Below are positions 7,333-20,280 of a stretch of DNA of 24,667 bases, one piece after another. Each line of letters starts with the position of its first letter. Position 1 is the first letter of the stretch. Under the pieces are notes generated by a model that saw nothing but the letters and a program-made list of their open reading frames with translations, searched no databases and had not been told where the DNA came from. The stretch covers positions 1-24,667 of the IMG/VR virus record IMGVR_UViG_3300032132_000537; one strand, given 5' to 3'. The stretch is from a virus. The position numbers were made by a program, and so were the translations under genes.

Positions 7333-8054
7333 TACTTAATTGCTACAAAAGACCAGAGTATCTAAAAGAGCAGATTGATGCCATTAAAAGGCAAACTAAA
7401 GCTCCGTCACAGATATGGCTGTGGATAAACGCTTGTGAAGAGAATAAGAAGTTTAATCCTTATAGTTTAGGATTAAATAAGATATTTAAGTCAAATACAA
7501 ATTGTAAATATCATGGCAGATTTGCAGTAGCGTTGTTGGCCCAAACAGAGTACGTAGCTTTTTTTGACGATGATACCATCCCTGGTGACATGTGGTTTGA
7601 GAACTGTTTGAACACTATGAAAGAGACTCCTGGTATATTAGGAGGAGCGGGATGTATTTTACATAGTAGGTATTATGTGCAACATCAAAGGATGGGTTGG
7701 CCTGTTAAAAATCCTTCTACTGTCGAAGTAGATCTAGTGGGCCATGCATGGTTTATGAAGAGGGAGCATTTAAATTACATGTGGTATGAAACTCCATTTA
7801 CTTTTGATAATGGAGAGGATATTCAACTATCATATCTTGCAAAGAAATATGGAAATATTAGTACTTATTGTCCACCACATCCAGAGAATAACCAAAAGAT
7901 GCATAGTTCGTTAAAACCAGAGGAATATGGAAATGATGCTAAAGCGTCATCTAACGGATCTCTCATGCCCATTCCAGATTTTTATGCACAACGAGATGCT
8001 TGTATTTCTCACGGTATTGATAATGGTTGGATTACGGTTTTAGGTGTAAAATGA
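7311..8054 (+). CDS. GT-A glycosyltransferase (GT2-like)
   Basis: A 247-residue predicted inverting GT-A transferase using a metal-bound nucleotide sugar. It begins with the family strand LTVILNCYKRPEYLKEQI, carries the DxD-type metal motif FFDDD (Asp86-Asp88), and has the acceptor-side block GHAWFMKREHL (144-154) followed by GEDIQLSY (168-175), where Glu169/Asp170 match the catalytic ED pair of GT2 enzymes. The length is that of a single catalytic domain with no membrane segment, so it is probably soluble. The stop overlaps the epimerase ATG as ATGA. Donor and acceptor are unknown. Confidence 0.85.
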   Translation: MEESLTVILNCYKRPEYLKEQIDAIKRQTKAPSQIWLWINACEENKKFNPYSLGLNKIFKSNTNCKYHGRFAVALLAQTEYVAFFDDDTIPGDMWFENCLNTMKETPGILGGAGCILHSRYYVQHQRMGWPVKNPSTVEVDLVGHAWFMKREHLNYMWYETPFTFDNGEDIQLSYLAKKYGNISTYCPPHPENNQKMHSSLKPEEYGNDAKASSNGSLMPIPDFYAQRDACISHGIDNGWITVLGVK

Positions 8055-9028
8055 TAGGGTTATTTTATGGAACTCGACCTGAATATATTAAATTAAAACC
8101 TCTTTTTGTGGAGCTTACAAAAGAGAATGTGCAGTATAAGTTATTCCAGGTAGGGCAACACGCCTCTTTATTAGACGGATGTAAGTTTGATTACAGGGTT
8201 GAAGTTCGTAATACTACTTCCAATAGACTTAATGATATTATAATTTCAATACTAAATTATAAATTACCTGAAGAGTTAGATTATATAATGGTTCAGGGGG
8301 ATACTACCACTGCGATGGCGATTGCTATGAATGCTTTTAATTGTGAGATTCCAGTGATGCATTTAGAGGCAGGATTGAGAACTTACAACAAGAAAAGTCC
8401 ATTCCCAGAAGAAGTTAATAGAAGACTAATTAGTGTTTTGGCTGAAATTCATTATTGCCCTACGAAGCAGGATATGGCACATTTATTACTTGAAGGCAAT
8501 AAAGATCATATATTTGAAACTGGAAATACAGTTATTGATAATATAAGAGATATGGTTTCTTCTAAGTCTAATGAAGTAATAGTTACTTTACATAGGAGAG
8601 AGAATCAAAAGGATTTGAAGGACTGGTATAAGGTGATCGAAAATCTTGCTTCCTCTTATCCTAATTATTCTTTCGTTTTTCCTATGCACCCAAGCCCAGA
8701 AGTGCAAAAGCATAAGGAAATATTTAAAGAGGTTAGAGTTTGTGATCCTTTTCCTTATGATGAAATGAAGAGGAGAATATCTTCTTGTGCCTTTGCCATT
8801 ACAGATAGTGGAGGGATACAAGAGGAGTGTAGTTTTTTTAATAAGTTATGCTTAGTCTGTAGAACCGTAACAGAACGCCCATCAGGGACCAGTGTTTTGT
8901 GTAGGAATCCTACGGAACTGTTTGATAATTTTAAGAATAACTGTATGAGAGAGTTTAATATTGATTGCCCTTTTGGAGATGGGTATGCCTCAAGAAAAAT
9001 TACTAAAGACATTCTCGGAAGAGTTTAA
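8051..9028 (+). CDS. wecB: UDP-N-acetylglucosamine 2-epimerase (WecB-like)
   Basis: Interconverts UDP-GlcNAc and UDP-ManNAc, supplying ManNAc-type sugars for glycan synthesis. All main non-hydrolysing epimerase motifs are present in order: GTRPEYIK (7-14), GDTTT (83-87), HLEAGLRT (104-111), PEEVNRR (119-125), TLHRREN (179-185), SGGIQEE (253-259) and RTVTERPS (271-278). Catalytic acids Asp84, Glu106 and Glu121 and the His181 region are kept. ATG 8051 overlaps the previous stop (ATGA) and starts at the first strand, so it is preferred over TTG 8027. At 325 residues it is shorter than typical WecB (about 375), mostly through trimmed loops and C-terminus. No ManNAc dehydrogenase (WecC) is visible, so ManNAc itself or a derivative may be the product. 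Confidence 0.92.
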   Translation: MIGLFYGTRPEYIKLKPLFVELTKENVQYKLFQVGQHASLLDGCKFDYRVEVRNTTSNRLNDIIISILNYKLPEELDYIMVQGDTTTAMAIAMNAFNCEIPVMHLEAGLRTYNKKSPFPEEVNRRLISVLAEIHYCPTKQDMAHLLLEGNKDHIFETGNTVIDNIRDMVSSKSNEVIVTLHRRENQKDLKDWYKVIENLASSYPNYSFVFPMHPSPEVQKHKEIFKEVRVCDPFPYDEMKRRISSCAFAITDSGGIQEECSFFNKLCLVCRTVTERPSGTSVLCRNPTELFDNFKNNCMREFNIDCPFGDGYASRKITKDILGRV

Positions 9029-9803
9029 CAAATTCAAAGACAAGCTTTCCAGCAGGGAAAATTTTGCTTTCTCTAGATTTTCAGATGGAGAGTTATTTAT
9101 GCTTAAAGGAGAAAAGCTTGTATTAGAAGGCGACCATTACATTACAGGAGATAAAAAAGGTCCTGGAATATACACTGAGGAAGAGCATAAAAGGTTCGAT
9201 CCCGAAAAAGATAAGTTTTACCAGGATAAACTGGTGGAAGCTTTACAATACAGAAAAAATAATTATTACAAGGGACTTACTGGGATAGTAGATGAAGATA
9301 TTGCTGGAGTAGGCGCATTTCAATTCCAGTTGGATTTATGTGGCGAGGGAGATGAAGAACATTTAAGCTTTTCCAACGTTTTTATAAATAATAATTACCC
9401 CAGGTTTATATCTGAGATAATGCCTATTATCCAAGAACGAGAAGTGGTGTTTATCGTTAATGAATCTGCTACATTAGAATCTTTAAATTTAAATATTATC
9501 AAAGATTTCAGGGTCGGAAGTAATTGCATAATTAACAATTACGGGCTAGTGGAAGAATTAAAGGAATGGATAGGGGATAATGACGTAACAGACACAGTGT
9601 TCTTGTTCTCTGCTTCCACTTTAAGTAACTACATTATTCATGAATGTTTTAAGGAATACGAAAATAATACTTACATAGACATAGGAAGTTCTTTGAATCC
9701 TTGGATGGGTTTAGAAGGATGGAAGTATAGTAGAGCATACTTACAGTACCATATCCTTGGGATGCCAAATAAGTACGGAACACAAGAAGACAAATGGATC
9801 TAA
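8985..9803 (+). CDS. Probable GT-D-fold glycosyltransferase (DUF1792-like)
   Basis: A 272-residue protein whose N-terminal FSRFSDGEL (29-37) matches the R-x-x-DGE signature of the GT-D glycosyltransferase fold first defined in DUF1792 proteins of streptococcal glycan pathways. The C-terminal DIGSSLNPW (232-240) fits the second conserved block of that family. A central segment (153-215) alternates strands and helices as expected for a Rossmann-like domain. ATG 8985 has GGAG (8975-8978) six bases upstream. TTG 8961 and ATG 8979 are in frame but worse placed. It overlaps the epimerase by 44 bases. The fold call is by motif only. Other surface-glycan proteins share R-x-x-DGE, so the transferase role is tentative. 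Confidence 0.55.
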   Translation: MPQEKLLKTFSEEFNKFKDKLSSRENFAFSRFSDGELFMLKGEKLVLEGDHYITGDKKGPGIYTEEEHKRFDPEKDKFYQDKLVEALQYRKNNYYKGLTGIVDEDIAGVGAFQFQLDLCGEGDEEHLSFSNVFINNNYPRFISEIMPIIQEREVVFIVNESATLESLNLNIIKDFRVGSNCIINNYGLVEELKEWIGDNDVTDTVFLFSASTLSNYIIHECFKEYENNTYIDIGSSLNPWMGLEGWKYSRAYLQYHILGMPNKYGTQEDKWI

Positions 9804-10162
9804 TACCCATAACTCCTGAGTATTATGATTTCGTAAGGAATTTAAGGATGCATCCTGAAACGAGGGATGGGTTTTTGGAAGAGGCAAATATATCAACCGA
9901 AGACCAGCAAAGGTATATGGAAAGACACGGTGGTAGTTATTATATTTGTCTATTATATAATGAGCCTGTCGGGTATATTGGAGTAATAGATGATGATATT
10001 AGGATTTGTACGTCTCCTTTACATCAAAGGTGTGGTATTGGTAAGTTCATGTTAAAATCTATAAAAGATTTACACCCTACCGCGATGGGAAGAGTAAAGA
10101 AAGAAAATATTAGTAGTCAACGCTTATTTGATAGTTGTGAAGTGAATTATAAATTAATATGA
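9794..10162 (+). CDS. GNAT-family N-acetyltransferase, compact
   Basis: A 122-residue GNAT fold that should transfer acetyl from acetyl-CoA to an amine. The pyrophosphate-binding loop HQRCGIGKFML (77-87) fits the Q/R-x-x-G-x-G/A motif, preceded by two strands (SYYICLLYNEPVGYIGVI, 48-65) and followed by a helix and the late KKENISSQRLFDSC block, typical of enzymes that acetylate amino sugars. The protein is about 25-40 residues shorter than common GNATs. It lies immediately before a DegT-type PLP protein (ATGA overlap), the usual pairing for making N-acetylated amino sugars: aminate, then acetylate. That sequence of reactions is inferred from context. Confidence 0.8.
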   Translation: MDLIPITPEYYDFVRNLRMHPETRDGFLEEANISTEDQQRYMERHGGSYYICLLYNEPVGYIGVIDDDIRICTSPLHQRCGIGKFMLKSIKDLHPTAMGRVKKENISSQRLFDSCEVNYKLI

Positions 10163-10779
10163 AAATTATAAAACATAATCCATATAAAATAGTTCAAATG
10201 TTTGAAGAGGAGATTGCCGAATATACTGGGGCACCGTTCGCGGTGGCTGTTGATAGTTGCACAAATGCGCTGTTCTTATGTTGTAAGCATTTGAATGTTC
10301 AAGAGGTTATTATACCCAAGAAAACCTATCTCTCTGTGCCTATGTCAATAATACATTCAGGAGGTAAGGTAACTTTTGAGGATCGTAAGTGGTCGGGAGT
10401 ATATCAACTGAAGCCCTATCCTATTTACGATGCCGCAAAAAGGTTTACGTCAGGAATGTATATTCCTGGTAGTTTTATGTGTATCTCTTTTCACATTAAG
10501 AAAACTCTTCCGTTAGGGAAGGGCGGTATGATACTAACCGATAATTATGAAGCTGTTCAGTGGTTTAGAAAGGCTCGATATGAGGGACGTTCTGAGGTAA
10601 ACTATAAAGAAGATAGTATAGAGATGCTTGGGTGGAATATGTACATGACCCCCCAGCAGGCATCACACGGGCTCGCTCTTATGCAGAATTATCCTGAGCA
10701 TGTTCCTGATCTTGGAGAGAATAACGGCTACAGGGATCTAACTAAATTTCCTGTATTTAAGGAGTGTGATATTATATGA
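10159..10779 (+). CDS. Minimal DegT/DnrJ/EryC1-type PLP aminotransferase
   Basis: Related to sugar aminotransferases that put an amino group on a keto nucleotide sugar using PLP and glutamate. In 206 residues it keeps the core large-domain motifs: the VDSCTNAL phosphate-cup segment (31-38), the PLP-ring aspartate in YDAAKRF (Asp91), and the Schiff-base lysine in SFHIKKTLPLGKGGM (Lys115). It then reaches a GWNMYMTPQQA block (158-168) like the family's G-x-N-x-R-M...QAA region and stops soon after. Typical members have 360-400 residues, so the C-terminal small domain is absent. The next ATG overlaps its stop (ATGA) and the frame is intact, so this looks like a compact enzyme rather than a frameshift. 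Whether it is active is uncertain. Confidence 0.75.
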   Translation: MKIIKHNPYKIVQMFEEEIAEYTGAPFAVAVDSCTNALFLCCKHLNVQEVIIPKKTYLSVPMSIIHSGGKVTFEDRKWSGVYQLKPYPIYDAAKRFTSGMYIPGSFMCISFHIKKTLPLGKGGMILTDNYEAVQWFRKARYEGRSEVNYKEDSIEMLGWNMYMTPQQASHGLALMQNYPEHVPDLGENNGYRDLTKFPVFKECDII

Positions 10780-11660
10780 TTACTTTCTTGGCACTAGGAG
10801 AGAGAGGTCGTTTAGGGAATCAGCTATTTCAATATGCGGCACTTAGGTCTTTAGGTTTGAGACAAAATTATGAAGTTAAAATACCCAGACCTTCTAGTAA
10901 GAATTGGCATGGACAGCAGTGTTTGCTGGATAAATTTAATATTAAGGCTGTTTCGCTAGAAGATTCGGATCTTAGTAGCATTACCCGTATGTATTCAGAG
11001 CCTGATTACATGACTTTTGATAATAATTTCTTTCATTTACCAGACAATTTAAATTTAGATGGGTTTTTTCAAAGCACTTTTTATTTTAAAGAATTTGAGC
11101 GTGATATAAAAGAGGAGTTAACCCCGAAGGATGAGTTTTTGTTGAAGGCGAAGGAAGAAATACTTAAAATAAAGAAAGATACTGGCTATGATATAGTAAG
11201 TTTGCATCTGAGGAGAGGAGACAATACTGATAATTCTAACCCTTCCGATGAGCTAAACAGCATGTATGGTAGTAATAATGTCTTTTCTCATGATAGTTTT
11301 TATGGTAAATATTTGAAGAACGCAATGAATCAATTTAAAGGCAAGAGAGTTAAATTTCTTGTGTTCACGGGAGGGGCTAGGTTTACCGATGATAATTCCT
11401 CAGATGTAGAATGGTGTAAAAAGAATTTAGCAGGGGACGAGTTTATTTATTCCGAAGGTCAGTCTAGCATGGGTGATTTTTGCAAGATTATGTCTTGTGA
11501 TCATAACATATTATCTCATGTGAGCAGTTTCGGGTGGTGGGCCGCATACCTTAATAGTAACAAGGGTCGTGTTACGGTAGCACCTGAGAGGTACCACCCA
11601 GACAGGCAAGATTTGACGTATAGAGAAGGCTTTTTTCCTAAGGAGTGGGTCTTAGTATGA
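10776..11660 (+). CDS. GT11-family glycosyltransferase (alpha-1,2-fucosyltransferase-like)
   Basis: Predicted inverting GT-B transferase of family GT11, which moves L-fucose or related sugars (such as colitose) from GDP-sugar donors. The three family signatures are present in 294 residues: GRLGNQLFQYA near the start (11-21), the donor-binding HLRRGD (144-149), and SSFGWWAAYLN (250-260). Length is normal for bacterial GT11. It is a likely user of a GDP-activated deoxysugar, and the GDP-fucose-synthase-like and ColD-like genes in the same island could supply it. ATG overlaps the upstream stop (ATGA). Confidence 0.88.
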   Translation: MITFLALGERGRLGNQLFQYAALRSLGLRQNYEVKIPRPSSKNWHGQQCLLDKFNIKAVSLEDSDLSSITRMYSEPDYMTFDNNFFHLPDNLNLDGFFQSTFYFKEFERDIKEELTPKDEFLLKAKEEILKIKKDTGYDIVSLHLRRGDNTDNSNPSDELNSMYGSNNVFSHDSFYGKYLKNAMNQFKGKRVKFLVFTGGARFTDDNSSDVEWCKKNLAGDEFIYSEGQSSMGDFCKIMSCDHNILSHVSSFGWWAAYLNSNKGRVTVAPERYHPDRQDLTYREGFFPKEWVLV

Positions 11661-12399: not shown

Positions 12400-12921
12400 A
12401 TGAAATCATTGATATTAACGTGGGAGACTTTTCAGGACCATGAGGTAATTTACCCTTACTATAGATTACAAGAAGAAGGTCAGGTAGATGTGGTGGCTAA
12501 CGTCACTGGTAAAATATTTGGTATTTTAGGGGCGCATGTAATGGCTACTAAAACCATATCTGATTTGACGACGGATCTTATTGAGGAATATGATCTTTTG
12601 GTTATTCCTGGAGGGGTTAAGGCTTTAGAAAAATTGCGGCAGGAGCAGCGGGCTCTTGATTTTATTAACAACTGGGATTCTCACAACAAACCAATAGCCT
12701 CTATATGCCATGGAGGTCAAATGCTCATTTCCTCTAATGTAATTAGAGGTAGGCGTGTTTCAGGATATTACAGCATTAAAGATGATTTGATAAATGCGGG
12801 AGGGTATTATACAAGTGATCCCTACGTTGTGCATGATAATCTTATATGTTGCCCTCATTATGATCATATGGCCGCATGGCTTAAGGCGGCTATTGAGGTT
12901 TGTAATGAGCTACGAGAGTAG
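12400..12921 (+). CDS. DJ-1/PfpI superfamily protein
   Basis: A 173-residue flavodoxin-like protein of the DJ-1/PfpI superfamily, whose members act as glyoxalases, deglycases, hydratases or peptidases. The nucleophile elbow is intact: SICHGGQML with Cys103 followed by His104, VIPGG at 68-72, and the partner Glu15 near the N-terminus. The later segment (GRRVSGYYSIKDDLINAGG, 117-135) follows the PfpI/YhbO subgroup closely. Its place among sugar genes suggests work on a keto-sugar or removal of reactive carbonyls, but substrate cannot be inferred. AGGAG lies just before ATG 12400. Its 3' end overlaps the cupin gene by 17 bases. Confidence 0.88.
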   Translation: MKSLILTWETFQDHEVIYPYYRLQEEGQVDVVANVTGKIFGILGAHVMATKTISDLTTDLIEEYDLLVIPGGVKALEKLRQEQRALDFINNWDSHNKPIASICHGGQMLISSNVIRGRRVSGYYSIKDDLINAGGYYTSDPYVVHDNLICCPHYDHMAAWLKAAIEVCNELRE

Positions 12922-13534: not shown

Positions 13535-14019
13535 CGAAGTATATTTTTGATTTGGATAAGACTATATGGGATTGCCATGCTTTTGATGGGTCTTCCCTCT
13601 TTGCAAAACAAATGGTCCCTCCTTTTGTAAGACACGGTGATAAAATATTGGATTCTAAAAATTCTATTTGTGCCCTGTATCCAGGCGTTAGAGAATTTTT
13701 AGAATCCTTAAGGAAATCTTCTCAGGATGTAGGATATTTATCTCTAGGAGGCGGGTTTAACATTTCCATGGATCATCAGCCTTCTGTTTTGCTTTTGAAA
13801 GAGTTTGGTTTGTATGGCCTTTTTAATTCCGATAAGATACTAGACTATTACTTAGATGCAGATCACCAGAAAAAGACTAAAAATAGTTACTTGGCAAAAA
13901 TTGCTCCTTGCGTTTTTCTTGATGATGACGACGTTATGATAAAGGCAGCGAAAAGTGTTAAGGGTGTGAAAGCAGTGGATAGGAAGAGTATACAGGAATG
14001 GACACAAATACTAGATTAG
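13531..14019 (+). CDS. HAD-superfamily phosphatase (MDP-1-like)
   Basis: A 162-residue aspartate-nucleophile phosphatase. Motif I is FDLDKTIWD with nucleophile Asp7 and acid/base Asp9, motif II is the SLGGG region (Ser71), motif III is probably a lysine among 114-117 (KKTK), and motif IV is FLDDDD (Asp131-134) for Mg2+. The small cap and the LYPGVREFLESLR helix match MDP-1- and FkbH-type HADs. In this cluster it probably dephosphorylates a sugar-phosphate intermediate. Start by ATGA overlap with the cupin gene. It overlaps the E1-alpha-like gene by 22 bases. Confidence 0.8.
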   Translation: MTKYIFDLDKTIWDCHAFDGSSLFAKQMVPPFVRHGDKILDSKNSICALYPGVREFLESLRKSSQDVGYLSLGGGFNISMDHQPSVLLLKEFGLYGLFNSDKILDYYLDADHQKKTKNSYLAKIAPCVFLDDDDVMIKAAKSVKGVKAVDRKSIQEWTQILD

Positions 14020-14831
14020 AAATTTACAAAATTGCTGCTTCTTGTAGAGCTTTTGAAGAAGAAGTTTTTAGTAGGGTCAAGAATAAGGAAATAGGTTTTC
14101 CTGTTTATCTTTCGGCTGGTCAAGAATTTATTTCTGCGACGTTGGCTTATGTGAATAAGTCTCAACGCCCTTCTATATTTGCTCAACATAGAGCCCATTC
14201 TACTTACTTATCTTTTGGAGGGGACAGAGATAAACTTATTTTAGAGTTGTTAGGAAGTGCTAAAGGGTGTACTAATGGTATGGGAGGTTCTGCTTCAATA
14301 CATGGCTCAGATATAAGCATGTATGGTCACGATGGGCTTATGGGAAGTCAGGTTCCTATTGGAGTGGGTCATTGTTTTGCTACCAAAAGACCTACTATTA
14401 TTTTTATGGGGGATGCTTCTGCGGAGGAAGATTATGCTTTAGGGGCAATGGGATGGGCCGCAACCAAGAAATTGCCTATTTTATTTGTTGTTGAAGATAA
14501 TAATCTATCTATCCTTACCGAAAAAAAGGTGAGAAGGTCTTGGGATATGTCCAAGGTAGCTAAGGGTTTTGGAATGGAGAGTAGTGATATTTATGACTCC
14601 CCTGACGAGTTGTGCAAATATGTTATAACCGAGAAAAGTGGACCAAGGCTAATAAACGTAGAGACTAATAGAATGTTTTGGCATGCTGGGGCAGGTAAAG
14701 ATTCTGATGATACTTTTGATAGGTTAGAGCATGAAAAGGTGAAATTAGAGTCCTTGGGGGTTTCTGTTTCTTCTATTATTGAGACCGCTAAAGAAGAAAT
14801 ATCTGAACGTTGGAATATGCTTAAAAGGTAG
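13998..14831 (+). CDS. TPP-dependent E1-alpha-like subunit
   Basis: Alpha half of a thiamine-pyrophosphate enzyme of the 2-oxoacid dehydrogenase E1 type. The 277 residues include the HRAHSTYLSFGGD block (64-76, His67 matching human PDH E1-alpha His63), GCTNGMGGS (90-98), GLMGSQVPIGVG (113-124), and the TPP/Mg2+ motif starting GDASAEEDY (138-146) and ending at Asn168-Asn169. It lacks part of the C-terminal region of metabolic E1-alpha (over 320 residues). The beta partner is the next gene, 6 bases away. No E2 or E3 gene is visible, so a full dehydrogenase complex is unlikely from this window. A decarboxylase or two-carbon transfer role in sugar synthesis is the better guess, not shown by sequence. 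Confidence 0.85.
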   Translation: MDTNTRLEIYKIAASCRAFEEEVFSRVKNKEIGFPVYLSAGQEFISATLAYVNKSQRPSIFAQHRAHSTYLSFGGDRDKLILELLGSAKGCTNGMGGSASIHGSDISMYGHDGLMGSQVPIGVGHCFATKRPTIIFMGDASAEEDYALGAMGWAATKKLPILFVVEDNNLSILTEKKVRRSWDMSKVAKGFGMESSDIYDSPDELCKYVITEKSGPRLINVETNRMFWHAGAGKDSDDTFDRLEHEKVKLESLGVSVSSIIETAKEEISERWNMLKR

Positions 14832-14837
14832 AGTATA

Positions 14838-15749
14838 ATGTCTATTACTCTAAGAGATCAGATAAAGTCGATAACTAAAACGCATTTACTGTCTGAAGGC
14901 AGTATAGCCATGGGGCAGTGCCTAACGGCAGTTGGGTGGGTCGGCGGAACCTTGCCTAAGCTCAAAGAGTCCGATGGTATTGTGGAGTTATCTATGGCTG
15001 ATGTTGCTGGTGGCGGTATAGCAGTAGGTGCTGCACTCGCCGGTATTAGGCCAATGTATGTAATTAGGTATCAAGGATTTAATTGGTTTAATGCTCCTAT
15101 GATCATTAATTACGCGGCAAAGTCTAAAGAAATATGGGGGATACCTTGTCCTATATTTGTTAGAAGTATAGCGATGGAAGGAGGTATAGGTCCTGTCGCT
15201 GGTTCTTCACATCACGCTCTTTATTATAGGATGCCGGGTACAAATATTGCATCTCCAATGACTCCTGGGGAATATAGGGAAGTTTATGATTGGTTTATGG
15301 ACAACGAAGAAGTTTTGTACGTGTCTGAACATAGAGGTAGTTATTTAAACACCGAGGAACTACCAGACATTTTAGTGAATGATGCCAAGGTTGTGTTGTT
15401 CCCTATTTCCATTACTAGATTTGCGGCTGTGGAGGCGGCAAAAACATTAAACGAGATGGGTATTCCAACTTCTGTGATACATCTTCCTTGGATTAAACCT
15501 TTGAAAATTAGAACCCCCAACTGGGGAGAAGTTCTAGGTAATGCCGACATAGGGTTGGTAATTGATGATGATTACGAGGATGGTGTTGCAAGGGTTATAG
15601 CTCATAAATTAATGCTTGATAAAAAGGAAGGACTCACCCCGATATATTCCCTAGGGCTTGATAATAGATCAGCGGGGTTTAGTAAAGAGACAGATAACCT
15701 TCCCCCCAATGCGGAGCAGATTGTAGAAAAGGTAATCGAAAAATGGTAA
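14838..15749 (+). CDS. TPP-dependent E1-beta / transketolase-like subunit
   Basis: Beta partner of the preceding gene, 303 residues, with a transketolase pyrimidine-binding domain (about 1-175) and a C-terminal transketolase domain (about 180-303). Human E1-beta TPISEMGFAGIAVGAA aligns without gaps to LSMADVAGGGIAVGAA (51-66). The glutamate that activates TPP in human E1-beta (mature Glu59) is aspartate here, Asp55. Other matches are FNWFNAPMIINYAAK (82-96) and the GIGPVAGSSHHALYYRMPG block. The Asp could still protonate the cofactor but leaves a longer gap, so altered chemistry or low activity is possible. The next gene overlaps the last codons (ATG 15743). Confidence 0.85.
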   Translation: MSITLRDQIKSITKTHLLSEGSIAMGQCLTAVGWVGGTLPKLKESDGIVELSMADVAGGGIAVGAALAGIRPMYVIRYQGFNWFNAPMIINYAAKSKEIWGIPCPIFVRSIAMEGGIGPVAGSSHHALYYRMPGTNIASPMTPGEYREVYDWFMDNEEVLYVSEHRGSYLNTEELPDILVNDAKVVLFPISITRFAAVEAAKTLNEMGIPTSVIHLPWIKPLKIRTPNWGEVLGNADIGLVIDDDYEDGVARVIAHKLMLDKKEGLTPIYSLGLDNRSAGFSKETDNLPPNAEQIVEKVIEKW

Positions 15750-16717: not shown

Positions 16718-17634
16718 ATAAAGATTTACATAGGCGAATAGAAGGATTTGATAATTTAGGGGCCTCCTTCCCTCATCAAAGATTGGATAAATTATTAATC
16801 GAATACAAGATACCTGATAATCTACGTATAAATCTTGAGATCGCCGCTCTATGCTTTGTTAATAAGTGCCTTCCCAAGACAGTTCGCCCATGCTTATCCG
16901 AACAAGACGTAGAGAAAGCTTTGGTAAGATATGAGGATGATATTCCTAATATTACTCCTAACGGAATGATGGTATGTAAAAGGCATACTGTTGTGGAGTA
17001 TAATTTATTGGTCTCGGCTTTTATGGATATTTTAAATTCTTTGGGAGCGGGTGAATTGGTGGAATCTTGGCATATTCCTCTTAATCTGAGGGTTAAGTAT
17101 GGTAGGGAGAATAAGGAAAATATGGGTAGACATCACCCTACCGAATTTGTACATTCTGATAGCTGGGCAGGGGAATCAATTCGTAGTGTGACAACTCTTA
17201 TTCCTATATTTGGAGACACAGATAATAATCATGTAACGTTTTATTCCCCCCCTGATGATTTTAAAGATAGTTGGTTAGGAGCACTACCATCTTACGCAGA
17301 CGGGGCAGAGATAGCAAAGAGATATACCAAGGTTCCTGAAGTCCCCAAAAAGGGACATCTTTATCTTCAAGATTTTGGAGGTTTACATTCTTCAACTAGG
17401 AGAGAAAATGCGGGAGTTAGGCTTAGTATTGATACCACTTTCGTTTTAAAGAGACCTCAAGATATTCCAGAGAGAGAACATAAATTTAGATCTAAAGAAC
17501 GAGCCTCCCATGATTTCTTAAGTGGTGTAGGAGCGGAGACGCTATTATATTTTCCAGACGATGTAAGTACTATAGTAGATTGTGAGGGAGGCTTTAAGCA
17601 TTCTTCCAACGCAAAAAAAGTATGCCTAAATTAG
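16714..17634 (+). CDS. Probable Fe(II)/2-oxoglutarate oxygenase-like protein
   Basis: A 306-residue protein not confidently recognised as a named family. A likely double-stranded beta-helix is suggested by an HxD pair, His147-Asp149 (EFVHSDSW), a distal histidine His225 (GGLHSST) and Arg236 eleven residues later (RLSID), the ligand set of Fe(II)/2-oxoglutarate oxygenases. Strands between them (VTTLIPIFGD, NHVTFYSP, KKGHLYLQDFGG) fit that fold. If right, it would hydroxylate or desaturate a sugar or lipid substrate. The N-terminal 120 residues are helical and unassigned. ATG overlaps the upstream stop (ATGA) and the 3' end overlaps the radical SAM gene by 13 bases. A metal-independent cupin-like role is possible. 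Confidence 0.5.
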   Translation: MNKDLHRRIEGFDNLGASFPHQRLDKLLIEYKIPDNLRINLEIAALCFVNKCLPKTVRPCLSEQDVEKALVRYEDDIPNITPNGMMVCKRHTVVEYNLLVSAFMDILNSLGAGELVESWHIPLNLRVKYGRENKENMGRHHPTEFVHSDSWAGESIRSVTTLIPIFGDTDNNHVTFYSPPDDFKDSWLGALPSYADGAEIAKRYTKVPEVPKKGHLYLQDFGGLHSSTRRENAGVRLSIDTTFVLKRPQDIPEREHKFRSKERASHDFLSGVGAETLLYFPDDVSTIVDCEGGFKHSSNAKKVCLN

Positions 17635-19145
17635 ATATATTATTTGTCCATCCTAATGGGGCAAAAAAGATTTATCAGTCGTTAAGTGATAAACGTACGG
17701 CTATAGAGCCTCCCATATGGGCAGCGTTACTGACTAATCATTGCCTTTCGAAAGGTTTTAATAGTGAGATATTAGATTGTGAAGCAGAGGGGTTATCTAC
17801 AGAAGAATCTGCGGAAATAATAAATTCAATTGATAGTAGAATTGTTTGCTTTGTTGTATACGGCCAACAACCCAGTGCGTCCTCTCAAAATATGGTGGGA
17901 GCCACAGACACTAGCAACCGGGTAAAAGAGCTAAACCCTAATATTAAGATATTGTACGTAGGAGGTCATATAGCAGCCTTGCCTTCTCAAACACTCAGTG
18001 ATGAACCTAGTATAGACTTTATCTGTCAAAATGAAGGAGTCTATACTATAAGTACTCTTTTGCAAGTTTCTAATTTGGAGGATGTAAATCAGCTAAAAAA
18101 AGTGAAGGGTTTAGGATTTAGGGATAATGGAGGGACAGTAATCCTAAACCCTCCGTCTCCTATAGTTCCCAAAGATAGGATGGAGGTTGACCTACCAGGG
18201 ATGGCATGGAATTCTCTTCCTTCTCTTTCTAAATATAGAACTGCTGGATGGCACTCTTGGTCTAACGATTCAGAAAAGGCACCTTTTGCTTCCTTGTACA
18301 CTAGCTTGGGGTGTCCTTATAAATGTTCTTTTTGTATGATTAATATAATTAGTAGAACAGACCCTTCTCCAAATGTTGCGAGCGATAAAAGTAACTTCTT
18401 TAGGTGGTGGAGTCCTGATTTTATAATTAATCAATTTGATTATTTGGCTAATCAAGGGGTTAGAAACATTAAGATAGCAGACGAGTTATTTGTTTTAAAT
18501 CCTAATCACTTCATGAAAATTTGTGATTTAATAATTGAAAGAGGTTACAATTTTAACATTTGGGCTTATTCTAGGATTGATACCTGCAAACCAGAGTATC
18601 TGGACACTCTAAAAAAGGCCGGGGTTAATTGGTTAGGGTTAGGTATAGAAAACCCTAATCAGGTTCTTAGAAAAGAAGTCCATAAGGGCAGCTATAAAGA
18701 GGTGAAAATAAACGATATAATAAAAGTGGTACAAGACTCAGGCATAAATGTTGGAGGTAATTATATCTTCGGATTGCCTTTTGACACGGCAGAATCTATG
18801 CAAGAAACTTTGGATTTTTCTTTGCAAAATAAAACTGAAATGGTGAATTATTATTGTGCAATGGCATATCCTGGAAGCCCCCTTCATATAGAGTCCAAGA
18901 ACAAGGGTACCCCCTTACCTTCTGATTATGTCGGCTATAGTCAGCATTCGTACGAAACTTTTAATCTACCCACTGAAACTTTATCGTCTTCTGAGGTTTT
19001 GAGATTTAGAGACCATGCTTGGAATACCTATAATACAGATAAGGATTACTTGAATCTTTTAGAGGATAAGTTTGGCGCAAAAGCTAGGCTCGATATGGAA
19101 GAGACTACAAAAGTGACACTATCTAGAAAGTTATTGGATGATTAA
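17622..19145 (+). CDS. Radical SAM enzyme with N-terminal B12-binding-like domain
   Basis: A 507-residue class B-type radical SAM protein. Residues 1-150 resemble a cobalamin-binding Rossmann domain (DILFVHPNG start, YVGGHIAALPSQTL, DFICQNEG), although the DxHxxG ligand motif is not visible, so cobalamin may bind base-off or not at all. The radical SAM core begins at SLGCPYKCSFCMI, with 4Fe-4S ligands Cys231, Cys235 and Cys238. Later core features are KIADELFVLN, WLGLGIENPNQ and GGNYIFGLPFDT. Relatives methylate unactivated carbons or rearrange sugars, antibiotics and hopanoids. In this island it probably modifies a nucleotide sugar or glycan carbon. No ribosome site precedes ATG 17622, and it is likely read by coupling from the oxygenase-like gene. 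Confidence 0.85.
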   Translation: MPKLDILFVHPNGAKKIYQSLSDKRTAIEPPIWAALLTNHCLSKGFNSEILDCEAEGLSTEESAEIINSIDSRIVCFVVYGQQPSASSQNMVGATDTSNRVKELNPNIKILYVGGHIAALPSQTLSDEPSIDFICQNEGVYTISTLLQVSNLEDVNQLKKVKGLGFRDNGGTVILNPPSPIVPKDRMEVDLPGMAWNSLPSLSKYRTAGWHSWSNDSEKAPFASLYTSLGCPYKCSFCMINIISRTDPSPNVASDKSNFFRWWSPDFIINQFDYLANQGVRNIKIADELFVLNPNHFMKICDLIIERGYNFNIWAYSRIDTCKPEYLDTLKKAGVNWLGLGIENPNQVLRKEVHKGSYKEVKINDIIKVVQDSGINVGGNYIFGLPFDTAESMQETLDFSLQNKTEMVNYYCAMAYPGSPLHIESKNKGTPLPSDYVGYSQHSYETFNLPTETLSSSEVLRFRDHAWNTYNTDKDYLNLLEDKFGAKARLDMEETTKVTLSRKLLDD

Positions 19146-20280
19146 TGACATGTTAAAGAAAATAGAATTTGGAAAACTTGTTATAGGTGATATTGCTAAA
19201 AAGCATTTTGATGATGTTATTAAAAACAATTGGGCATCTAGTGGCCCTAAGGTTAAGTTATTTGAAAAACAGTGGGGAGAGCTATTTGGGTATAAGCACA
19301 ATGTTGCAATGAGTTCAGGGACAGATGCATGTATCCAAGCGTGTCTTTCATTATATAGAAATGGAGCAGAATCTGGAGATGAGGTAATAGTTCCGGCATT
19401 AAGTTTCATAGCAACTTCACATGCAGTTAGAGCCGCAGGGTTTATTCCTGTTTTTGTTGATGTAAAAAAAGAAACCTTGAATATAGATGAGTCTAAAATT
19501 GAGGAATCAATAACCGATAGAACAAGGGCTATCATGGTGGTTCATACAATGGGCAAACCGTGTAACATGGAAGTTATTTGTGATATAGCGTCAAAGTATA
19601 ATTTAGAGGTCATAGAAGATTCCTGTGAAGCTCACGGAGCTAAGTTTAAAGGTAAGCACATTGGGCAGTGGGGATCCATGGCGTGTTTCAGCTTTTACGT
19701 TGCTCACTTAATATGTTGTGGTGAGGGAGGTATGTTGTCGTTTAATTCTGACGATATTTTGCCTTTTGTGGAATCCACGAAGCAACATGGTAGGAGCGGT
19801 TTATACTTTGATCACCCTAACTTTGGCATTAATAGCAAAATGAATGACATGGAAGCTTCTCTAGGGTTGGAGGGTATTGAAACTTTTTGGGATACTTTTA
19901 ATACCAGGAAGGAAAATGTATATTACTTGAGAGATAGACTACAGAAATTTGAGGATCTTGTATGGTTCTCTGAGGAGGACGAAGGAGATGTTAATTGTCC
20001 ACATGGGTTCAGTCTTACTTTAAAACAGGAGGGTTTGCTCGGTAAATTAACAAAGGATCTAGAGGAGTCTAGTATCCACTGGAAAAGAAATTTTGGTAGT
20101 ATTCCAACACAGCACGGATCTTTTGATTATTTGGGTTATGAGTTAGGAGATTTCCCTAACTCTGAGTGGATAGGAGAAAATGGAATTCACGTTGGAGTCC
20201 ATCAGTACCTGTCTGAAAGTGATTTATCCTACATGGGAGATGCACTTGAAAATTCTTTAAATAATATATCGCAGGTTTAA
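19138..20280 (+). CDS. PLP-dependent sugar 3-dehydratase, ColD/DdhC type
   Basis: DegT/DnrJ/EryC1-family fold of 380 residues. The family PLP motifs are SSGTDACIQA (59-68), the ring aspartate Asp161 in EDSCEAHGA, and the SFYVAHLICCGEGGM segment (185-199). The Schiff-base lysine position is histidine, His190, as in ColD (Asp159/His188, same 29-residue spacing) and CDP-sugar 3-dehydrases (DdhC/RfbH). These enzymes remove the C3 hydroxyl of a 4-keto-6-deoxy nucleotide sugar instead of aminating it. Length is ColD-like. The cysteines beside His190 are not clearly the 2Fe-2S ligands of DdhC, so the ColD mechanism, using glutamate, is favoured. The next gene is a GDP-fucose-synthase-like SDR, as colC accompanies colD in colitose pathways. 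The nucleotide carrier is inferred, not seen. Confidence 0.82.
   Translation: MINDMLKKIEFGKLVIGDIAKKHFDDVIKNNWASSGPKVKLFEKQWGELFGYKHNVAMSSGTDACIQACLSLYRNGAESGDEVIVPALSFIATSHAVRAAGFIPVFVDVKKETLNIDESKIEESITDRTRAIMVVHTMGKPCNMEVICDIASKYNLEVIEDSCEAHGAKFKGKHIGQWGSMACFSFYVAHLICCGEGGMLSFNSDDILPFVESTKQHGRSGLYFDHPNFGINSKMNDMEASLGLEGIETFWDTFNTRKENVYYLRDRLQKFEDLVWFSEEDEGDVNCPHGFSLTLKQEGLLGKLTKDLEESSIHWKRNFGSIPTQHGSFDYLGYELGDFPNSEWIGENGIHVGVHQYLSESDLSYMGDALENSLNNISQV

Follow-up and report, generated by a model that had tools for sequence, protein, structure and literature searches.

The locus and its genes

The window analysed here is the whole of the virus record IMGVR_UViG_3300032132_000537, 24,667 bases in length. 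In scans against PHROGs, Pfam and NCBIfam, its open reading frames (ORFs) include, ahead of a long sugar-gene run, those for a DnaB-type helicase and a phage single-strand DNA-binding protein; a ribonucleotide reductase-like protein was also recognised by eye. Within the run lies a short gene for a compact DegT-family PLP protein, hereafter the mini-DegT or simply the mini, whose start overlaps the upstream stop at 10159-10162 and whose stop overlaps the next start at 10776-10779, both through ATGA (Table 1). The earlier note had described an intact frame ending near residue 206, with ATGA overlaps at both ends and with Lys115 and Asp91 in place, and the ORF and its codons agree with that description throughout. 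The key conserved positions of the mini are Tyr57, Asp91, Ser110, Lys115, Lys121, Arg144 and the Gly158-Met163 loop.

Table 1. Genes and codons at the mini-DegT locus, in positions of the window
Feature	Position	Strand	Basis
UDP-GlcNAc 2-epimerase, WecB type, same sugar-gene run	8051..9028	+	TIGR00236, 221.5 bits, cut-off 210.15
Protein without family assignment, start codon uncertain	8961..9803	+	Clade A homologues two to three genes upstream of mini
GNAT acetyltransferase, 122 aa, overlaps mini-DegT start by ATGA	9794..10162	+	Family scan
Compact DegT-family PLP protein (mini), 206 aa	10159..10779	+	ORF and PF01041 match
Codon of Asp91, expected partner of PLP pyridine N1, in YDAAKRF	10429..10431	+	Sequence and alignment
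Codon of Lys115, putative catalytic lysine, in SFHIKK	10501..10503	+	Aligned to Schiff-base lysine of full-length DegT proteins
Glycosyltransferase family 11, overlaps mini-DegT stop by ATGA	10776..11660	+	Family scans

For the product of the gene at 8961-9803, Pfam, PHROG and NCBIfam gave no match; its homologues stand at position -2 in 28 and at -3 in six of the 68 unique clade A mini loci (clades are defined below), and we take its RFSDGE-like motif to be reminiscent of GT-D glycosyltransferases. The sugar genes further downstream include a DJ-1/PfpI-family protein (12400-12921), a TPP-dependent E1 alpha/beta-like gene pair (13998-15749; pyruvate dehydrogenase E1 family, far below the cut-off) and a B12-binding radical SAM protein related to the HpnJ and BchE types (17622-19145). 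A full-length DegT homologue at 19138-20280 has His at the position of the catalytic Lys (SFYVAHL); its best match is RfbH, with 215.9 bits and below the RfbH cut-off, and the protein looks like a ColD/E1-type sugar dehydratase, not an aminotransferase.

The compact form and its relatives

With 87.6 bits against a cut-off of 19.8, the match of the mini-DegT to the Pfam profile PF01041 is far above chance and, by its sequence, the protein is a member of the DegT/DnrJ/EryC1/StrS superfamily. In this family, fold type I PLP aminotransferases normally have two domains and some 360-400 residues. The mini is not such a 360-400-residue subunit with a C-terminal small domain: it has 206 residues and matches the profile in two pieces, positions 23-94 and 163-237 of 360, so that about 68 internal positions and the C-terminal 123 (238-360) are without counterpart. 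None of the NCBIfam equivalog cut-offs is reached by the window protein, the best score being 55.2 for the LegC family (cut-off 420) and that for PseC 48.6 (cut-off 423.5). A family specific to the compact form was found neither in Pfam and NCBIfam, searched with representatives of the three clades, nor in PHROGs, searched with the window protein; the matches were to general DegT or aminotransferase models only.

Relatives were collected by peptide-pattern scans from three seeds, the window protein (clade A), the 195-aa protein of Synechococcus phage S-SCSM2R (clade B) and the 214-aa protein of Flavobacterium phage immuto (clade C). The best 80 matches were kept of 151, 197 and 507, three counts that may overlap, and because the scans rely on patterns and keep the best 80 per seed, distant or longer forms may be missed. 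Representatives of the other two clades also pass the PF01041 cut-off, as does a mini from a Woesearchaeota contig (L098).

Among the best 80 of the 151 relatives found in viral contigs with the window seed, the short frame is intact in all 80, and 79 of the proteins are 198-216 aa long; the exception (L035), of 248 aa by the first start rule, is longer because a GNAT domain is fused upstream of its mini. After a scripted choice of start codon, in which the nearest Met was taken, 273 of 274 minis measured 193-230 aa and one 170 aa. That set left out ORFs of at least 1100 nt and took in two extra window copies and four phage records. Because long ORFs were dropped at this step, the claim about length also rests on a scan with the family profile and no limit on ORF length, which gave 290 matches among all ORFs of 275 loci and the window. 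Five of these are high-scoring ORFs of more than 240 aa, their extra length being mainly N-terminal, and ten other long matches, all of 78 bits or less, are nine full-length DegT proteins (some cut by contig ends) and an intermediate form described below. Five close pairs of minis differ by 34 synonymous and 5 nonsynonymous codon changes, 60 and 8, 4 and 1, 22 and 6, and 43 and 14, respectively. On account of the hundreds of same-size homologues, the invariant catalytic residues and the mostly synonymous changes, the view that the mini-DegT is a real, selected compact protein is strongly supported. The earlier note had thought that it seemed to be a true minimal enzyme, and had suggested a search for phage homologues of equal length; that it is a genuine compact protein and not a damaged gene is borne out by the narrow length range of 273 of the 274 relatives and their unvarying catalytic residues, and the search returned many viral contigs as well as the annotated phages immuto (214 aa) and S-SCSM2R (195 aa).

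Modelled as a single chain with 101 family sequences given, the window mini has an AlphaFold pLDDT of 96.6 and a pTM of 0.92; the clade B protein, also as a single chain, reaches 96.0 and 0.92, and the order of its elements is the same. GDP-perosamine synthase is both the top Foldseek match of the window model and the best solved-structure match of the family profile by sequence (1.7e-17), and in the viral structure library the top match is A0A5Q2W5Y7, a protein of 316 aa. With VIA-align, residues 4-206 of the window model superpose on the sugar aminotransferase 7b0d with Z 20.8 and 2.5 Å over 195 residues, and the clade B model superposes over its whole length on a sugar aminotransferase with Z 19.8 and 2.4 Å over 186 aligned residues. 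Both models match family structures from end to end, and in them the fold type I large domain is present, minus about 45 residues.

In the alignment with full-length proteins, three parts are absent from the mini: about 25 N-terminal residues forming the arm, the roughly 45 large-domain residues, a stretch in which a strand and the helices joined to it usually lie, and the greater part of the small domain. As aligned, the mini is excised internally and not merely cut off at the C-terminus. The earlier note had reported the C-terminal domain as absent, which is right for most of the small domain; it did not foresee the loss of the arm and of the large-domain segment, and the tail is apparently kept. 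The last residue of the models aligns to residue 360 (window) or 355 (clade B) of Spr1654, taken as alignment end points, and the small domain of Spr1654 begins at residue 277 (available part of PMC5936713). Because the model ends align far past this start, the conserved tail of the mini (Y-x-D-L ... F-K) suggests, as judged from these end points, a relic of the small domain near the active site.

A tree built on 188 shared core columns from 19 minis, 30 full-length DegT proteins (all from the fetched loci) and three intermediates places the minis in one clade, with support 100/99. The intermediate form is 316 aa long and occurs on three contigs (L054:1595-2542, L287 and L288), the first of which also holds a mini, and it groups with the minis with support 99/98. 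Common to the two forms are the internal large-domain gap and the Lys; the intermediate differs in that its PF01041 match runs on through the C-terminal domain, to position 359 of 360, and in that the residue before the GG discussed below is acidic. As the intermediate has the internal gap yet retains the C-terminal domain, it suggests that the internal large-domain loss preceded the other losses.

Identity to the window protein goes down to 33% among the minis. In cellular genomes the compact form is rare, with two cases in 200 Prochlorococcus genus genomes and one in 280 genomes of the class of the Woesearchaeota genome, both groups having been chosen for a known case; the scan of the genome collection gave 28 compact-form loci, of which one is truncated at a contig end. 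Named phages seldom carry it either: it is present in 7 of 50,697 records with each of three queries, and the plasmid search returned one partial match of 26%, annotated as DegT aminotransferase. The protein matched in Marine virus AG-345-F15 is an ordinary full-length DegT.

Active site, gene partners and function

Conservation was counted in an alignment of 221 unique minis, with 30 full-length proteins as the comparison set. The residues K115, D91, Y57, Y82, S110, F111, G122, G143, R144, G158, Y162 and M163 are identical in all 221 minis, and position 35, that of the phosphate Thr, is Thr or Ser in every one. By alignment with full-length relatives and the residue roles given for Spr1654 (available part of PMC5936713), the roles of Schiff-base lysine, N1 aspartate, phosphate serine and aromatic residue beside PLP all fall to invariant positions; read in this way, the residue set of a Lys-type aminotransferase is present throughout, with Schiff-base Lys, N1 Asp and phosphate Ser in 221/221 and Thr/Ser35 in all.

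Other parts of the site are altered. All 221 minis have Lys or Arg at position 121, before the GG, where 29 of the 30 full-length relatives have Glu or Asp. The acid before the GG is Glu205 in Spr1654 and, according to PMC5936713, conserved among all sugar aminotransferases; it is absent from all 221 minis. This diagnostic change of charge leaves room for different chemistry. In Pcryo_0638, O3' of PLP is contacted by Gln159 (available part of PMC8040287); most full-length relatives have Gln, His or Glu at the corresponding position, and the minis Lys (clade A), mostly Val (clade B) or Leu (clade C). Lys94 was tried as a family hallmark and rejected, being invariant in clade A only; most clade B minis have Val there, and those of clade C have Leu. 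Tyr82, Arg144 and Tyr162, in turn, are invariant in minis and variable in full-length relatives. The mini retains the large-domain loop G158-W-N-M-Y-M163, and in related enzymes the large domain also gives residues to the partner's dimer site (available parts of PMC5936713 and PMC8040287). The earlier note had assigned the completion of the dimer site to the C-terminal domain; this holds in part, that domain not acting alone in the related enzymes that these sources cover.

The genes around the mini differ between the clades. Neighbours were counted per unique mini, with ORFs called rather crudely, longest first, and their names are at family level, representatives falling below curated cut-offs (NeuD 152 vs 160.8, GMD 367.1 vs 415). 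In clade A, a GNAT gene stands at -1 in 33 of 68 loci, mostly with the same 4-base overlap, and an acyltransferase of either type lies at most two genes away in 51 of 68; the GNAT-mini fusion of L035 belongs to this clade's set, and the window GNAT itself matches PseH weakly (17.6 bits). In clade C, an acetyltransferase of the NeuD/PglB/VioB family was found in 31 of 56 scanned +1 genes, and 48 of 57 loci have an acyltransferase no more than two genes away. GDP-mannose 4,6-dehydratase (GMD) makes GDP-4-keto-6-deoxymannose. Its gene is the +1 neighbour of clade B minis in 29 of 65 scanned cases, and at the 12 positions within six genes of the mini, GMD-like genes occur in 32 of 66 clade B, two of 68 clade A and none of 57 clade C loci; an acyltransferase was detected within two genes in only eight of 66 clade B loci. 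The mini of L098 (7986-8615), from a contig of a Woesearchaeota chromosome, adjoins a C-5 cytosine DNA methylase gene and, in the six genes scanned, its recognised neighbours were purine-synthesis, transport and DNA-methylase genes, with no sugar cluster evident. The complete 244 kb genome of S-SCSM2R has no PF01041 match other than its mini.

The mini is likely to be an active enzyme. We favour, with some reserve, the reading of a compact, self-sufficient PLP sugar aminotransferase that makes amino sugars for phage-encoded glycans. The reasons are the invariant residues, the predicted fold, the match to GDP-perosamine synthase, the clade-specific sugar neighbours, the fusion in L035 and the lone mini of S-SCSM2R; Lys/Arg121, the unusual O3' residue, the context of L098, the few acyltransferases in clade B, the neighbours' merely family-level names and the likely loss of nucleotide-pocket residues with the small domain count against it. 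From the observed frame, conservation, predicted fold, clade and neighbours we infer PLP binding, dimer, donor, substrate and reaction as follows. PLP would form a Schiff base with Lys115, with Asp91 pairing with the pyridine N1, Tyr57 flanking the ring, and Ser110 and Thr35 binding the phosphate. An amino donor, for example glutamate, would yield PMP, which would then aminate a keto-deoxy sugar, most likely nucleotide-linked; the neighbouring acyltransferase, a GNAT in the window, may N-acylate the amino-sugar product, and phage glycosyltransferases may build the glycan from it. The protein is probably a homodimer, whose sites would be completed by the partner's Gly158-Met163 loop and the retained C-terminal tail. 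GDP-perosamine synthase acts on GDP-4-keto-6-deoxymannose (available part of PMC5936713). Part of the nucleotide pocket of the related enzyme Pcryo_0638 comes from residues that would lie in the domain absent from the mini (available part of PMC8040287), and it is the loss of this nucleotide-holding domain, together with the reversed charge at 121, that makes substrate and reaction doubtful.

By a rival reading, the mini is a PLP enzyme and not a classical NDP-sugar aminotransferase: its open site and the reversed charge at 121 could serve another reaction, such as dehydration or epimerisation, or a substrate lacking a nucleotide or passed on by a partner enzyme. The Lys/Arg at 121 in all 221 minis, opposed to Glu/Asp in 29 of 30 full-length proteins, fits this idea, as do the newly invariant Tyr82, Arg144 and Tyr162, the GNAT fusion in L035 with the tight GNAT overlap elsewhere, and the loss of the small domain, a contributor to base binding in Pcryo_0638 (available part of PMC8040287). 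The catalytic lysine is retained, however, unlike in His-type dehydratases, the best profile match is an aminotransferase and the gene partners suit amino-sugar synthesis; we regard such a different chemistry as possible but unlikely.

A related proposal, equally tentative, takes the minis as a clade, mostly viral, of fold type I PLP enzymes of about 195-215 residues that lost the large-domain segment first and then the arm and small domain. Its electrostatically rewired site, with Lys/Arg before the GG and the new invariant Tyr82, Arg144 and Tyr162, might aminate keto sugars with no need of the usual nucleotide clamp; the substrates might be handed directly between the dehydratase or epimerase and a fused or overlapping acyltransferase.

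The mini might instead be a subunit or regulator that depends on a full-length DegT or on a separately encoded C-terminal domain. Full-length DegT genes do coexist with it in immuto, LR756511, LR756502 and the window, and the L054 contig pairs it with the form of intermediate size. Yet the complete S-SCSM2R genome encodes no other PF01041 protein, although a host enzyme might fill the role, and the window's full-length relative has His for Lys. A separate gene for the C-terminal domain was sought with a profile of eight full-length sequences in all ORFs of the fetched loci; the 41 matches all fell in ORFs of at least 300 aa, none in a shorter one, and dependence of this kind seems improbable to us.

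Catalytic residues of this kind are usually lost in dead relatives. The mini has lost most of its small domain and lacks the usual residue at the O3' position, which could be taken to mean that it is a catalytically inactive, structural PLP-fold protein, but Lys115, Asp91 and Ser110 stay invariant down to 33% identity with the window protein, and we regard this reading as improbable. That the gene reflects a sequencing error or is the decaying remnant of an ordinary DegT gene, as the size of the mini-DegT alone would speak for, is next to impossible given the equal length in many independent contigs and in annotated phage genomes (214 aa, 195 aa) and the predominance of synonymous changes in close pairs.

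Relation to known systems

Current annotation names the minis as full-length enzymes, AHBA synthase in S-SCSM2R and WecE in immuto, and such names conceal how the compact form differs. In searches of titles and abstracts, with most subscription papers outside their reach, no description was found of a truncated or half-size DegT or of a viral DegT protein, and a search on phages and perosamine, again of titles and abstracts, gave none of a compact DegT protein. Hundreds of sequences from uncultured viruses contain the compact form, often next to other sugar-building genes, and our results suggest that, among uncultured aquatic viruses, many have an amino-sugar pathway in a version of their own. 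A selected half-size clade would aid in defining how small a working fold can be, and the compact form is a possible ready scaffold for making amino sugars.

The nearest solved relative is the GDP-perosamine synthase of Caulobacter crescentus (3bn1/3dr7), the best profile and Foldseek match, with which the mini shares the core fold and the catalytic Lys, Asp and Ser. That enzyme has 364-391 aa with the arm and full large and small domains, whereas the mini is about 170 residues shorter and has a basic residue before the GG; the enzyme's substrate supplier, GMD, often adjoins clade B minis (29/65 at +1) but not those of the window's clade (2/68 within six genes). The aminotransferases PseC, PglE, WecE and ArnB pair with the acetyltransferases PseH, PglD or WecD. 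The mini is half the size of these enzymes and its NCBIfam scores are far below their curated cut-offs; it has in common with them the pairing of aminotransferase and N-acetyltransferase genes, PseC is among its best NCBIfam matches (48.6 bits), and the NeuD/PglB/VioB family stands beside the minis of clade C.
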